IMG/VR virus record: IMGVR_UViG_3300036715_000070 | Coordinates: 1-34,662 of that record | Length of the DNA stretch: 34,662 bases | Source: a virus | Reading direction: 5' to 3' (one strand) | Shown here: positions 19,578 through 25,651 of the stretch, piece after piece | Layout: each line of letters begins with the position of its first letter | Numbering within the stretch: the stretch's first letter is position 1 | The notes under the pieces: model-generated | The model's input: the letters and a program-made list of their open reading frames with translations, nothing else | Database searches by the model: none | Told to the model about the DNA's origin: nothing | Made by a program: the position numbers and the translations under genes

Positions 19578-19774
19578 TGAGAAGAAAAAAACAACAAATA
19601 GAAGTACTAGACATTCGGGAAGTTAAGTCGGCGGTGATCGACATTAAGGTGGATGACAAGACCTTCAACGCTCTAGCTGAGGCTGGTAGGATTCATCTAC
19701 AGAAGGATAAGAAGGCGTGCTTTGAGTACGCTCTAAACAAGGCACTAATCGAACTATCTGAGCAACTCAAATGA
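19577..19774 (+). CDS. Hypothetical protein, 65 aa
   Basis: Starts in a TAATG overlap and ends in an ATGA overlap. The sequence opens very basic (MRRKKQQIEVL), has a strand-like DIREVKSAVIDIKV and ends in a helix (CFEYALNKALIELSEQLK). A ribbon-helix or small DNA-binding fold is conceivable, but nothing is diagnostic. It precedes the oxygenase and may be its small partner. Confidence 0.6.
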   Translation: MRRKKQQIEVLDIREVKSAVIDIKVDDKTFNALAEAGRIHLQKDKKACFEYALNKALIELSEQLK

Positions 19775-20343
19775 CTGAAGCCTTCAAGCAGAAGGTTCTA
19801 ACCGCCAGCGTGGATCGTTACGTTCTCACGCCTACGCAATGCGCCATGCTACGCCAGGATGCCGAGGTCATGGGCATGAAGCGTGCAACTGTAATGAATA
19901 AGGACGGCACAACCCGCAAGTCATTTGCAAGAAGCTGCTCATCGTGCTGGGTTCCTTTCGCTACACATTACGAGTGGATCTACAAAGTGATGCGAGAGCT
20001 TACAGACAGCATCAATGCCGATGTATGGCGATTCGACATCCAAGGCATCCAGCAGTTGCAGATCCTAAAGTATAATCCGCTACAGCAATTCTGGTGGCAT
20101 TGGGACGCATTCACCTCCGAGGCTCCAGTTAGGAAGCTGACAGCAGTGGTCAACCTATCTGACCCTAGTGAGTACCTGGGCGGTGGGTTGCAAGTTAAGG
20201 CTGACTTGGAGAATGCTCGGTTTATACGAGCGCAGGGGGCTGGCTGCTGGTTCCCATCCTACATCGAGCATCGCGCTCGCGCTCCTATCTTTGGTACACG
20301 CTGGGTATTGGTAGCGTGGTTTACAGGACCAGCGTGGAAGTAG
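19771..20343 (+). CDS. 2OG-Fe(II) oxygenase, prolyl-hydroxylase/PKHD type
   Basis: The double-stranded beta-helix core carries all expected ligands: His110-x-Asp112 (WHWDAF), the distal His167 (YIEHRARAPI) and Arg177 in GTRWVLVAWFTGP for 2-oxoglutarate. GGGLQV at about 137-142 is the usual turn between them. The length of 190 residues is right for phage PKHD-type enzymes. It would hydroxylate a protein or other substrate with oxygen, iron and 2-oxoglutarate. It sits among glycosyltransferases and a radical SAM gene, which hints at a modification pathway. The substrate is unknown; it does not look like a TET/JBP base oxidase. Confidence 0.8.
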   Translation: MTEAFKQKVLTASVDRYVLTPTQCAMLRQDAEVMGMKRATVMNKDGTTRKSFARSCSSCWVPFATHYEWIYKVMRELTDSINADVWRFDIQGIQQLQILKYNPLQQFWWHWDAFTSEAPVRKLTAVVNLSDPSEYLGGGLQVKADLENARFIRAQGAGCWFPSYIEHRARAPIFGTRWVLVAWFTGPAWK

Positions 20344-20914: not shown

Positions 20915-21186
20915 ACATACGAGATCAGATCCTAGAAGACTTTGGCGAGGAGGCTGAGACAATCCTGTTCGCGGATGGATTCGATGATGCGATCTTGGGT
21001 GTTGGTAATACATTCGGTGGCAAGTTGTGCGCGATTTACGATACTGACATGGTGCTGAAGTCCTGCATGAAGGATGGGATGGAATACGATGAGGCTTTAG
21101 AGTACTTCGATTTTAACATTGCAGGAGCTTATGTGGGAGAGCAGACTCCAATTTTCATTCACAAAATAGAAAGGCAGGGCAAATGA
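20911..21186 (+). CDS. Conserved phage hypothetical protein, 91 aa
   Basis: The acidic protein has an N-terminal helix (RDQILEDFGEEAETILFADG), a central AILGVGNTFGGKLCAIYDTD segment and YDEALEYFDFNIAGAYVGEQ near the end. This last motif is one I associate with a widely spread phage protein of unknown function that appears next to replication genes. Two coupled starts (ATGA) flank it. No enzymatic residues can be assigned. Confidence 0.75.
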   Translation: MNIRDQILEDFGEEAETILFADGFDDAILGVGNTFGGKLCAIYDTDMVLKSCMKDGMEYDEALEYFDFNIAGAYVGEQTPIFIHKIERQGK

Positions 21187-22289
21187 AACTATGGATCAAT
21201 AATACCAACTCAATCCACAAGGTGGATGACAACTTACTCCACACCCGCAACACATACGTCATTCCAGACGAGCTTACTGGACCATTATGGGATGATGCTA
21301 TTCCCTGTCCTCATAAGATTAAACCCTACGCCAAGGGCAGGGCAGCAGGCGGAGCAACAGCAGTGTACCGCGCTGGAGCTATCGGGGATGCTGTCATTGC
21401 AACCGCATTCGTTAATTACTTGGTGCAGGAGTCGGGAGGAGTGGTAGATGTTTACGCCCCTGCTCGCAACTTGCCGCTATACGCTGGCATAGGCGCGAAG
21501 CTATTCCCTCTGCCTTGCACGCTAGAGGCGTGGGATAGTTATGACGCGCACTTACCCTCGGACGACCTGTTCAGTGGTCAGGTAGGTAATACCAAGCTAG
21601 GCACTGGCCCAGGTAACTGCTACCAGCGGGTGTACGAGTGGATGGGAGTGTGGGATGAGAAGACGATGGCGAAGTATTGTAGGCCGAATCTGTACCTAAT
21701 TGAACCAGATCACGAAGAACTAAAGGCGATGGGCAAGTGGCCACTGCCAGATCCATACTTCGCTTACCACGTTTCATCGAGTGGACCAACTCGCACCTAC
21801 CCCCCAGCTATGGGGCAACAGGCGGTGCTGGCGTTGCTGGAAGCTTATCCCAAGCATCACGCTGTTATCATTGGCCTAGACAACGCAAACAATTTCAAGG
21901 TGGATCACCCTCGCGTGATTGACTTGTTCAACACGACCAAGGCGATTCGTTCCTTGTTCCCTGTAGTTGCCAACGCTGACTTCGTAGTGGCTCCAGATAG
22001 TTCAGTCAACCATATCGCTGCGGGGTTAGATACGCCGTGTGTGTCGTTGTGGGGCAGTTATGACCCCGCCGACAGAATGACGTACTATAGTAAGAACGTG
22101 TCGGTGTTCAAGCCCGATACCTGCCCGCACGCACCTTGCCGACCTCATGCTGGGTTGCCACAAGCGAAGTGTAAGGATGCGAGCAACAAGACACCCAAGA
22201 CTCAGTACTGGTGCAATGCTCTGCGAAACATTACGGCGGAAGATATTGTTGTTGCATCGCGCAAGGCGATGGAGCTAGAAGAGAAGTAA
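21183..22289 (+). CDS. GT9/heptosyltransferase-like glycosyltransferase
   Basis: The GT-B fold is visible: AVYRAGAIGDAVIATAFVNY (about 60-79) matches the N-terminal GT9 loop with its Gly-Asp pair, and FVVAPDSSVNHIAAGLDTP (about 267-285) followed by VSLWGS is the donor-binding C-terminal motif with the usual Ser-Val-x-His. At 368 residues it is of normal length. GT9 enzymes add heptose or related sugars to LPS; in a phage the acceptor might be host LPS (serotype conversion), modified DNA or a virion protein. The Cys-rich end (CPHAPCRPH) is unusual. Confidence 0.8.
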   Translation: MKLWINNTNSIHKVDDNLLHTRNTYVIPDELTGPLWDDAIPCPHKIKPYAKGRAAGGATAVYRAGAIGDAVIATAFVNYLVQESGGVVDVYAPARNLPLYAGIGAKLFPLPCTLEAWDSYDAHLPSDDLFSGQVGNTKLGTGPGNCYQRVYEWMGVWDEKTMAKYCRPNLYLIEPDHEELKAMGKWPLPDPYFAYHVSSSGPTRTYPPAMGQQAVLALLEAYPKHHAVIIGLDNANNFKVDHPRVIDLFNTTKAIRSLFPVVANADFVVAPDSSVNHIAAGLDTPCVSLWGSYDPADRMTYYSKNVSVFKPDTCPHAPCRPHAGLPQAKCKDASNKTPKTQYWCNALRNITAEDIVVASRKAMELEEK

Positions 22290-22379: not shown

Positions 22380-23348
22380 ATGAAAGTAAGAATAACGCAT
22401 TTAGACGGAAAGCTACCTAACATCGCTTTAATGAAATTATCTGCTTGGCACAAAAGCCAGGGCGATGAGGTATATTTTAGTAAGTCCATGCAAAAAGAAC
22501 TATGGGAGGGTGATTATGATAGGGTATATGGAAGCTCAATCTTTGCTTGGAGCAAGCCAGCAAGAGATTTATTTTTAGCAAATTTCCCAAACGCAAACAT
22601 TGGTGGAACTGGATCGGGCAAAGTACAGACCATAGAGGAAATTACTGGGATGGATTTTGATGAATATGATTATTCAATTTATCCTTGGTTTAAGCAATCA
22701 ATAGGATTTAGCCAGAGGGGTTGCCGCCTTAAATGCTCATTTTGCGTTGTGCCTACTAAAGAAGGAAGAATAAGGGACAACTCATCAATAAGAAGGATTT
22801 GGAGGGGAGAGCCACACCCAAAGCAAATAATGTTACTGGACAACGATTTTTTTGGACAACCAAACTGGAAACAAAAAACAGAAGAAATTTTAGAAAACAA
22901 TTTTGAAGTCTCATTTAATCAAGGGATAAATGTTCGCCTAATCCACAAAGAAGGGGCTAAAGAATTGGCAAAAATTAAATATAGGGATGACCAATTTAAA
23001 AGCAAAAGAATTTATACAGCTTGGGACAACAGAAAAGACGAGGCCATATTCTTGCGAGGAATAAATACGCTTATGGACGCAGGGATAAAGCCCCAGCATA
23101 TAATGGTTTATTTTCTTTGCGGTTATTGGCCTGGTGAGAAGTTCGAGGACATATATTATAGATTTGAAACAATGGATAAAATGGGGCTTTTGCCATACCC
23201 AATGGTATATAACAATGACAATCCAGAACTAAAAAAATTTCAAAGATGGGTTATACGAAGATACTACAAGTTTATACCTTGGGGTGATTACTCAATTGGT
23301 GGTGATTCTCATTCAAAGAAATATGAAAATCAATTAAATCTTATATGA
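22380..23348 (+). CDS. Radical SAM protein of unknown substrate
   Basis: The diagnostic iron-sulphur motif is Cys115-x3-Cys119-x2-Cys122 (QRGCRLKCSFCVVP). The N-terminal about 100 residues (MKVRITHLDGKLPNIALMKL and DRVYGSSIFAWSKPA) resemble the cobalamin-binding-like half of B12-radical SAM proteins, without the B12 His signature that I can see. The body has LLDNDFF, VSFNQGINVRLI and HIMVYFLCGYWPGE, typical barrel strands. It would make a 5'-deoxyadenosyl radical to modify RNA, DNA, peptide or a small molecule. It is markedly more AT-rich than its neighbours, a sign of recent transfer. It overlaps the primase-helicase start as ATGA. Confidence 0.85.
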   Translation: MKVRITHLDGKLPNIALMKLSAWHKSQGDEVYFSKSMQKELWEGDYDRVYGSSIFAWSKPARDLFLANFPNANIGGTGSGKVQTIEEITGMDFDEYDYSIYPWFKQSIGFSQRGCRLKCSFCVVPTKEGRIRDNSSIRRIWRGEPHPKQIMLLDNDFFGQPNWKQKTEEILENNFEVSFNQGINVRLIHKEGAKELAKIKYRDDQFKSKRIYTAWDNRKDEAIFLRGINTLMDAGIKPQHIMVYFLCGYWPGEKFEDIYYRFETMDKMGLLPYPMVYNNDNPELKKFQRWVIRRYYKFIPWGDYSIGGDSHSKKYENQLNLI

Positions 23349-25318
23349 CACCACAACGCATCGCAGAATCAATAGTCGGGGAAGTAGATTGGCAGTCCGA
23401 GAATCACGGACTATGCAAATGCCCTGGGGAAGCCGCGCATACCAGCCACACCAGAGTCAGGGATACCACAGTTTTTATTGACGGCGCACCTACTATATTC
23501 TGTTGGCACTCCTCCTGCACGCCATACCGAGATGAGGCCAACCGCAAGCTGAGGCGCGCTATATCCAGCGACCCGCTGTACAGGTCAGCAGTTAAGGATT
23601 CCTTAATGACTCAAGGTAGCAGTTGCGCACCTCGATTAGTAATCCAGAAAGATCCAGAGTCAGAAGTACTCGACCGCATTAAGACTATTGCGGAGTCAAA
23701 CAAGCAACGCTATCTCACGCACTACAATTGGGACCCTGCGGATATGTTCGAGGAATCGCCTACCCCCATACCAGACGAGCCACAGGCGCAGTACGAGGCA
23801 ATGTTGTCGCTGTTCCGACCAGATGACATCGTGTGGATAGGTGGGGTGAAGGATAGTGGGAACCACCCACTTCACTTCAAGACCGCAAGCGAGTGGATGC
23901 AGACACCGCCCATCGGTCAGTTTACGACCGCTGGGGTGTTTGCGGCTGGTACTATCAGCCGAGCCAATGAGAATGTTATTACACGCCGTTACCTTGTCAT
24001 TGAATCGGATGTTTTGACCAAACCGCAGATGGGTGCGGTGTTCCAGCTTATGCGGGATGTATTCAGAATGAAGCTTCGCGCCATTGTAGATACTGGCGGG
24101 AAGAGTCTGCATGGTTGGTTTGATATTCCATCCAACGAAGAAGTTGTGAGTCAGTTGAAGGCTTTCCTTGTTCCTATCGGATGCGACCCAGCCACCTTCA
24201 AACCAAGTCAACCAGTTAGAATGCCAGGTGTAAAAAGAAATAACGACAACATGCAGAGTCTTCTGTGGTTCTGCCAAGGAGGTAAGATGAAAGAATTGCC
24301 AATGATCGAACCAGCAGTAGCACTAGGAATTAAGCCCAAAACCGATGAGTGGCCACCCATTAAACGCTATGATGAACTAATGGTGGAGAAGTTACCAGAG
24401 CCAGAGATTCTAATAGCTGGCATCTTGCATCAAGGTGGCAAATTGCTACTTGGTGGAGGCAGTAAGTCTTTTAAATCGTGGGCATTGATTGATCTCGCCT
24501 TGTCGATACAGGTGGGCGGGTTGTGGTGGGGGCAGCAGTGTAAGCGTGCGAAGGTGTTGTTCATTAACTTTGAGATCCAAGAGTGGAGTTTCCGTAATCG
24601 CCTAGCCGATGTAGTGAAGGCCAAGAACCTAACCCAAGATCAAGTAGCAGACTTCGATGTGTGGACGTTGAGGGGTTACGCTGCTGACTTGACAACCATC
24701 AGACCCATCATCGAGAAGCAAATCGAGGGGAAGGGCTACCAGGCGATCATTCTTGACCCTAACTATATGCTTATGGGTGATCGTGATGAGAATAACGCTG
24801 GTGACATGGCAAATTTGATGAATGAGTTTGAGGTTCTGGCAGTTAGACACAATCTTTCTGTCATATTGTCACATCATTTTGGCAAGGGAAACAAGAGTAA
24901 TTCGGAATCTATTGACAGATTCAGTGGCAGTGGTGTCTTTGCACGCAATCCAGACTCGCTCGTAGTCCTTACGGCACATGAGGAGGATGAGAGGAGCTTT
25001 ACTTGTGAAGTCACGCTCCGTAACTTCCCACCCTTAGACAGCTTCGTAGTTCAATGGCACTACCCACTATTCTTGACCAACTATTGCCTAAACCCAGACA
25101 ATCTAAAGAAGGCTGGAGCGCACAAAGCGATCAACGATTCGGACCTACTAAAAGCAATGGGTAGCAAAGCTTGGGTAGCAAATGACTTGGTCAAAACGAT
25201 GGCAGAAAAGATGGAGGTTTCGGACAGGACTGTTTATCGCTACATTAAGAGGCTGACAAACGCTGGCAAGATCGTGATAGACAACGGCTTCTATTCTGCC
25301 AACCAAGCTACTTTCTAG
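23345..25318 (+). CDS. Primase-helicase fusion (zinc finger, AEP-like primase, RepA-like ATPase)
   Basis: Four parts are visible. Residues 24-58 hold Cys24, Cys26, Cys53 and Cys58 (FCWHSSC), a zinc finger as in phage primases. Residues about 215-300 look like an archaeo-eukaryotic primase: YLVIESDVL with Glu220 and Asp222, DTGGKSLHGWFD with His256, and PVRMPGVKR. Residues about 366-545 are a RecA/RepA-type ATPase with LGGGSKSFKSW as Walker A, AIILDPNY as Walker B, and SHHFGKG. The end (about 598-657) is a winged helix (VSDRTVYRYIKRLTNAGKIV). It would prime and unwind DNA at the origin. No DNA polymerase is encoded in the window, so it probably loads the host's. Confidence 0.85.
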   Translation: MTPQRIAESIVGEVDWQSENHGLCKCPGEAAHTSHTRVRDTTVFIDGAPTIFCWHSSCTPYRDEANRKLRRAISSDPLYRSAVKDSLMTQGSSCAPRLVIQKDPESEVLDRIKTIAESNKQRYLTHYNWDPADMFEESPTPIPDEPQAQYEAMLSLFRPDDIVWIGGVKDSGNHPLHFKTASEWMQTPPIGQFTTAGVFAAGTISRANENVITRRYLVIESDVLTKPQMGAVFQLMRDVFRMKLRAIVDTGGKSLHGWFDIPSNEEVVSQLKAFLVPIGCDPATFKPSQPVRMPGVKRNNDNMQSLLWFCQGGKMKELPMIEPAVALGIKPKTDEWPPIKRYDELMVEKLPEPEILIAGILHQGGKLLLGGGSKSFKSWALIDLALSIQVGGLWWGQQCKRAKVLFINFEIQEWSFRNRLADVVKAKNLTQDQVADFDVWTLRGYAADLTTIRPIIEKQIEGKGYQAIILDPNYMLMGDRDENNAGDMANLMNEFEVLAVRHNLSVILSHHFGKGNKSNSESIDRFSGSGVFARNPDSLVVLTAHEEDERSFTCEVTLRNFPPLDSFVVQWHYPLFLTNYCLNPDNLKKAGAHKAINDSDLLKAMGSKAWVANDLVKTMAEKMEVSDRTVYRYIKRLTNAGKIVIDNGFYSANQATF

Positions 25319-25321
25319 TCG

Positions 25322-25357
25322 CTGACAAAGGTACTGCCAAACGTACTGACAACTACA
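25322..25357 (+). repeat. Three 12-bp tandem repeats (iteron-like)
   Basis: The units are CTGACAAAGGTA, CTGCCAAACGTA and CTGACAACTACA, placed exactly 12 bases apart. Units one and two share 10 of 12 bases, and one and three share 8. The third unit is also the left arm of the inverted repeat CTGACA-N9-TGTCAG (25346-25366). Confidence 0.6.
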
Positions 25358-25406
25358 CTATGTCAGACACCTATAGTACATATAGAAATACAATCTGCAA
25401 AGGAGA

Positions 25407-25438
25407 GGGGGAAAGGCTCCCTGAATCCGCCTTCCCCC
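25407..25438 (+). other. Strong GC-rich hairpin in the candidate origin
   Basis: GGGGGAA(A)GGC (25407-25417) pairs with GCCTTCCCCC (25429-25438): ten pairs with one bulged A and an 11-base loop. No T-run follows on the plus strand, so it is more likely a single-strand initiation or primase site, or a transcript end signal without a T-tract. Confidence 0.5.
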
Positions 25439-25510
25439 CAACCAATCCGAAGCAGCCTTGAGCGTGTATTTAAAAAAACAAATGGCATCGCGGTCGGCGT
25501 GTGATAAAGT

Positions 25511-25651
25511 ATGCAAATGAATAAATCCAAACCTGGTTTGTATGCCAACATCAACGCTCGCCGTAAGGCAGGCACTAGCCGTCCGAAATCGCAAAGCACC
25601 ATCAAACCGAAAGTGTGGCGGATGATGAAGGCCAAGAAGGGTACGTTCTGA
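25511..25651 (+). CDS. Small basic phage protein, 46 aa
   Basis: The product (after MQM, with a second ATG at 25517) reads NKSKPGLYANINARRKAGTS followed by RPKSQSTIKPKVWRMMKAKK. The GLYANIxARRxAGxSRP pattern is shared by many tiny phage proteins near structural or replication genes; the role is unknown. It is strongly basic and might bind DNA. It is the first gene after the candidate origin. Confidence 0.7.
   Translation: MQMNKSKPGLYANINARRKAGTSRPKSQSTIKPKVWRMMKAKKGTF

Follow-up and report, generated by a model that had tools for sequence, protein, structure and literature searches.

What occupies the 198 bp that follow the primase-helicase gene in this phage of freshwater origin, and could replication start there? 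The window, by which we mean the whole stretch of DNA that was analysed (34,662 nt), had been read before without database searches, and this sequence-only reading proposed a candidate origin of replication in a sizeable gap of the plus-strand early operon. By the ORF list the gap is indeed the largest one there. It extends from 25319 to 25516, from the stop of the primase-helicase gene to the start of a small conserved ORF of 44 aa (MNKSKPGLYANINARRKAG..., phrog_25774; 25517-25651, plus strand), which is itself absent from the ORF list. Judging from the comparisons described below, we estimate a probability of roughly three in four that the gap is the phage's replication origin, located directly downstream of the gene of its own initiator.

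The gap begins with direct repeats. As claimed previously, three tandem 12-bp units follow each other on the plus strand at an exact spacing of 12 bases between 25322 and 25357 (CTGACAAAGGTA, 25322-25333; CTGCCAAACGTA, 25334-25345; CTGACAACTACA, 25346-25357). Behind them lies a degenerate fourth unit, CTATGTCAGACA (25358-25369, plus strand), in which the motif is inverted and which forms a dyad with unit 3. None of 1000 dinucleotide shuffles of the gap reached the score of the 3x12 array and, when any period from 9 to 24 was allowed, the score was reached by 0.2% of 1000 shuffles (P = 0.002). Throughout the rest of the window, a score of this level was found only in two low-complexity coding stretches. 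The repeats in the gap are not a product of chance.

To compare the gap among near relatives, we scanned viral contigs with the window protein, which yielded 80 loci with 64-100% identity; a second scan with the helicase alone again gave 80 loci, mostly on the same contigs. From the near relatives 47 distinct gaps were compared, which fall into three clades. In the genome contigs searched no relative was found, and the DNA of the region showed no similarity to reference phages. Loss of the repeats in relatives that keep the replication genes had been named as evidence against an origin. The repeats are kept, and what changes between the clades is their sequence, which differs among all three, and the unit length, with a period of 12 in the window clade and 11 in the other two. 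The CTGACA (25346)/TGTCAG (25361) dyad that had been described is present in the window, but it is not conserved: at this place other members of the clade have ATGACAG or ATGACAA. As it is peculiar to the window phage, we rejected it as an origin feature. The AT-rich dyad CTATAGTACATATAG (25371-25385), on the other hand, proved to be real, with arms of at least 5 bp in 45 of the 47 distinct relatives, and is our proposed unwinding element.

The third element is a GC-rich hairpin on the minus strand (25407-25439; 11 pairs including one G.T, with an 11-nt loop, GGATTCAGGGA), which is the one main hairpin within the gap and the putative single-strand initiation (priming) site. It had been described as a ten-pair hairpin; ten pairs are present on the plus strand, but an A.C mismatch breaks the stem there, while the minus strand forms 11 unbroken pairs. 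All 47 distinct relatives have the hairpin in their gaps. The minus-strand stem is unbroken over 11-14 pairs in 46 of them, and the plus strand reaches 7 at most in all. Exactly one G.T on the minus strand (A.C on the plus strand) occurs in each stem type (8/8). Several of the other stem positions vary by paired substitutions, such that the minus strand stays paired, and the hairpin bases flanking the loop are invariant across the clades. In addition, folding was energetically favoured on the minus strand, by 4-5 kcal/mol for nine of ten versions under RNA parameters and for all ten under DNA parameters. We read these hairpin data as suggesting that selection acts on the single-stranded minus-strand form, either as DNA or as RNA. 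Folding energy alone leaves the window gap unremarkable (z about -1.8), so that the case rests on comparison. A loosely specified loop-pattern scan of viral contigs gave matches beyond the known relatives at about the number expected by chance and was set aside.

Could the hairpin instead be a transcription terminator or a processing site, perhaps for leftward transcripts, with the repeats unrelated to it? In clade B the minus strand has TTTT past the stem, and the ORF list of the window contains minus-strand ORFs at about 27.7-29.3 kb, both of which would fit such a role. However, the window clade has no T-run, loops of 10-12 nt, as found among the hairpins, are long for a terminator, and plus-strand genes intervene. 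Moreover, the relatives have a typical terminator-like hairpin elsewhere, GCTGGGGAGG...CCTCCCCAGCTTT. We therefore regard a terminator or processing site as highly improbable. As a plus-strand terminator the hairpin was rejected, since it lacks a T-run and is weaker on the plus strand. The terminator-like hairpin of the relatives ends in TTT and is located at G001:34872-34903 and at equivalent positions in G002-G004 (four of four relatives); it was not seen in the window scan.

Furthermore, distant homologues with about 33% identity were found in phages of Streptococcus, Paenibacillus, Bacillus, Enterococcus, Flavonifractor and Faecalibacterium as well as in gut phages (54-55 phage records). 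Yersinia phage P744 and ctKR88, with much weaker matches (E about 1e-6 to 1e-5), were excluded from the gap counts given below. In the distant proteins PriCT_2 replaces the N-terminal region, and the ESD (E220-S221-D222) and KSLH motifs are invariant. Their gaps, mostly 210-407 bp long, start with direct repeats near or flush with the stop codon and have a stem-loop last. Direct 8-mer repeats (P<=0.02) were present in 13 of 14 distant gaps compared to 2 of 41 control windows taken from the same loci, and all 14 gaps had a stem-loop with z<=-3 on the better strand compared to 4 of 41 control windows, although these phages are mutually related and the counts are thus not independent. The best distant hairpins mostly lie 150-320 bp past the stop; in most of them the G-rich arm comes first, EFC-1 being an exception. 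Most distant relatives have more repeat units than the three of the window, which is a point against the origin. The elements themselves, their non-randomness, their order and their conservation in near and distant relatives are established here. The candidate origin is well supported by this comparison, in which the same order follows homologous genes in phages of distant hosts; as the order of repeats, AT-rich patch and hairpin is conserved in phages of differing bacteria, the gap is probably a replication start.

A minimum of the cumulative GC skew had also been expected at the gap. The minimum lies elsewhere and the gap is near the maximum, which was located 0.6-1.4 kb to the right of the gap in all five genomes (5/5); gene orientation switches there. 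GC skew therefore gives the origin no support and was rejected as origin evidence, yet with the switch in orientation at the maximum it is not decisive.

The 3' part of the gap probably contains a promoter for the small 44-aa ORF. An extended -10-like element, TGTGATAAAGT (25500-25510, plus strand), was read from the sequence just 5' of this gene, and TATAAT or TACAAT is found at its place in the relatives, although a sigma-70 pattern scan did not pick up the element. As the gap also holds this probable promoter, part of its conservation may be regulatory. The entire gap could also be a regulatory region. The repeats would then be operators of the genes that follow, bound by the helicase HTH or by a different regulator, and the hairpin would give the transcript its shape. 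Tandem operators do resemble iterons, and in several clades a -10-like element lies about 10 bases 5' of the small conserved ORF. The hairpin, however, is weaker on the plus strand and lacks a T-run there, an Rfam scan of the region gave no family, and the repeats directly adjoin the stop codon of the replication gene, a good way upstream of the promoter, as they also do in the distant phages. This makes a purely regulatory role unlikely. A tRNA scan of the region found none.

If the gap is an origin, which protein would read it? The gene that ends at its left border encodes a fused primase-helicase of 657 aa (23345-25318, plus strand; AAA_25, 6.6e-24; HTH_11, 2.3e-6; PHROG DNA primase, 2.7e-63), with an AEP-like primase at residues ~1-315, a RecA/RepA-type helicase at ~348-516 and a C-terminal winged HTH at ~598-655. 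The latter, matched by HTH_11 and encoded by 25136-25309 (plus strand), is the proposed reader of the iterons. AlphaFold predicts three helices (598-605, 612-622 and 627-639) followed by strands (643-652), with pLDDT ~72-87 from residue 601 on. The model as a whole has a mean pLDDT of 47, and only its helicase core and winged helix are of good quality. Across the three clades the sequence of the winged HTH varies in step with the repeats, a co-variation that fits recognition of the repeats and that rests on three groups. It is likely that the iterons are bound by the winged helix of the helicase itself and not by a separate RepC.

That the enzyme is fused holds for the window, but is not typical of the relatives, as only 9 of about 80 are fused: a single primase-helicase ORF is found only in the window and in loci L001-L008 and L020. 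In most relatives primase and helicase are two genes that meet in an ATGA overlap or in a TAAG/TAGT junction with a ribosome site. A frameshift was considered for these relatives and rejected, because start and stop codons overlap in the ordinary way at the junctions and ribosome sites are present. The gap is built alike in fused and split relatives, and the fusion is thus not needed for it. In the window, a ribosome site together with ATG codons (AAGGAGGTAAGATG...ATGATCGAACC, 24277-24304) persists inside the fused ORF at the position where the relatives begin their separate helicase gene, so that a helicase-only product is possible. The two genes are separated by about 200 bp of extra DNA in L033 and L079, and by about 430 bp, containing an ORF, in L075.

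The element of the window joins features of the SaPI/SCC, pRN1 and RSF1010 origins, and an origin function is likely. SaPI and SCC elements have iterons directly downstream of their helicase gene, which are bound by the C-terminal domain of the helicase (PMC7581432). Likewise, the window has short direct repeats directly 3' of the initiator gene, a neighbouring primase, as in SaPI/SCCmec (Cch2) (PMC7581432), and a helicase whose predicted C-terminal DNA-binding domain is the putative reader, a role that is proposed or shown for those elements. In contrast, the window helicase is RecA/RepA-like and not a SaPI/Cch-type Rep, unit length and sequence are different, and the window adds the conserved minus-strand hairpin. 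The Sulfolobus plasmid pRN1 requires a stem-loop downstream of orf904, and the idea of a stem-loop origin has been carried to phages with the BIP-1/BPP-1 phage stem-loop (PMC4234260). With pRN1 the window shares an AEP primase, a helicase and a C-terminal winged helix in one protein as well as a stem-loop 3' of the gene. It differs in the helicase, which is RecA-type (SF4-like) and not SF3 as in pRN1, in its 11-pair hairpin compared to a stem-loop of ~100 nt, and in its iterons, which pRN1 lacks.

The analogy to RSF1010 that had been drawn held in part: RSF1010 has a likeness in helicase fold and, marginally, in the primase, but relies on a separate iteron binder. The window and the RSF1010 oriV share iterons, AT-rich DNA and a hairpin, and may share a RepA-type helicase fold, with a marginal similarity of the primase (PMC4434180; PMC4234260). 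The helicase fold matches RSF1010 RepA (1g8y) with E 6.3e-6, on a model that is poor overall. A search of reference structures by sequence gave no convincing relative and RSF1010 RepA only at E 0.25. When the primase region was aligned to RSF1010 RepB', the sequence of which was verified against plasmid records, hhalign gave E 0.0043 with a probability of 8%, a marginal similarity near the catalytic residues. In RSF1010 the iterons are bound by the separate RepC, and the two hairpins ssiA and ssiB, one per strand, have a GTG start triplet. The gap, with its single main hairpin, lacks such a pair on opposite strands, and by reading the sequences of the window and its relatives we saw no GTG that is conserved in the vicinity of the hairpin. 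RepB' begins the primer on the 3' side of the ssi hairpin (PMC4434180). As mentioned in PMC6356513, the ori of the Streptococcus thermophilus phage Sfi21 has a PER element, and as far as it is described there it shares with the gap that it is a short noncoding origin element inside a phage replication module; Sfi21 is absent among the homologues listed.

From these comparisons we infer how binding, melting, priming, strand and direction might follow from the order of the elements. With its C-terminal winged HTH the helicase would bind the 12-bp units, and the helicase ring would assemble on them and open the AT-rich dyad. Unwinding would release the minus strand, which may then fold into the 11-pair hairpin. 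The primase part would recognise the hairpin and its conserved loop and start a primer 3' of the hairpin, on the AT-rich side, which a host or phage polymerase would extend rightward. We consider a minus-strand priming step at the hairpin conceivable, at somewhat less than even odds. Single-strand initiation hairpins that are read by host enzymes exist, and the hairpin could be another type of replication site, for instance one at which the primosome or the primase of the host acts and which the phage enzyme does not read. Conservation of the loop alone is silent on the reader. As the hairpin accompanies the primase-helicase family across hosts of different groups, such a site appears very unlikely, and the phage's own enzyme is the preferred reader.

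More broadly, though this is rather doubtful, the gap might represent a widespread origin module of tailed phages, from those of Firmicutes to freshwater phages, in which iterons, an AT-rich dyad and an oriented GC-rich hairpin go together with an initiator composed of an AEP primase, a RepA-like helicase and a winged helix. Initiation would then be strand-specific, with the lone conserved G.T marking the minus-strand hairpin as the target of the primase and giving a one-directional start of replication. For most environmental phages, origins are unmapped. A search rule by which repeats, an AT-rich patch and a G-first hairpin directly behind a primase-helicase-HTH gene mark the origin could locate the origins of many uncultured phages with no more than their sequence. 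As there are cultured relatives in Streptococcus, Enterococcus and Paenibacillus, this rule is testable at the bench, and so is the idea that strand and direction of the first primer are determined by the hairpin.

Some further features were observed around the gap. The genes adjoining the primase-helicase are a radical SAM gene and small ORFs, and just upstream of the replication gene lie those for a 2OG-Fe(II) oxygenase, a family 9 glycosyltransferase and the radical SAM protein (19771-20343, 21183-22289 and 22380-23348, respectively). G001 and G003, the records of L012 and L066, have 123 bases repeated at both contig ends and look like closed contigs, with lengths of ~38.1 and ~39.3 kb; the window probably covers some nine tenths of the phage genome. 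In clade B gaps, such as that of L033, a second short hairpin (CGCTACG...CGTAGCG), which is missing from the window, follows the first. Between this second hairpin and the next gene, clade B members such as L005 carry tandem GGGCT/GGCTG repeats of varying copy number, which in L005 are located ~150-200 bases after the helicase stop.
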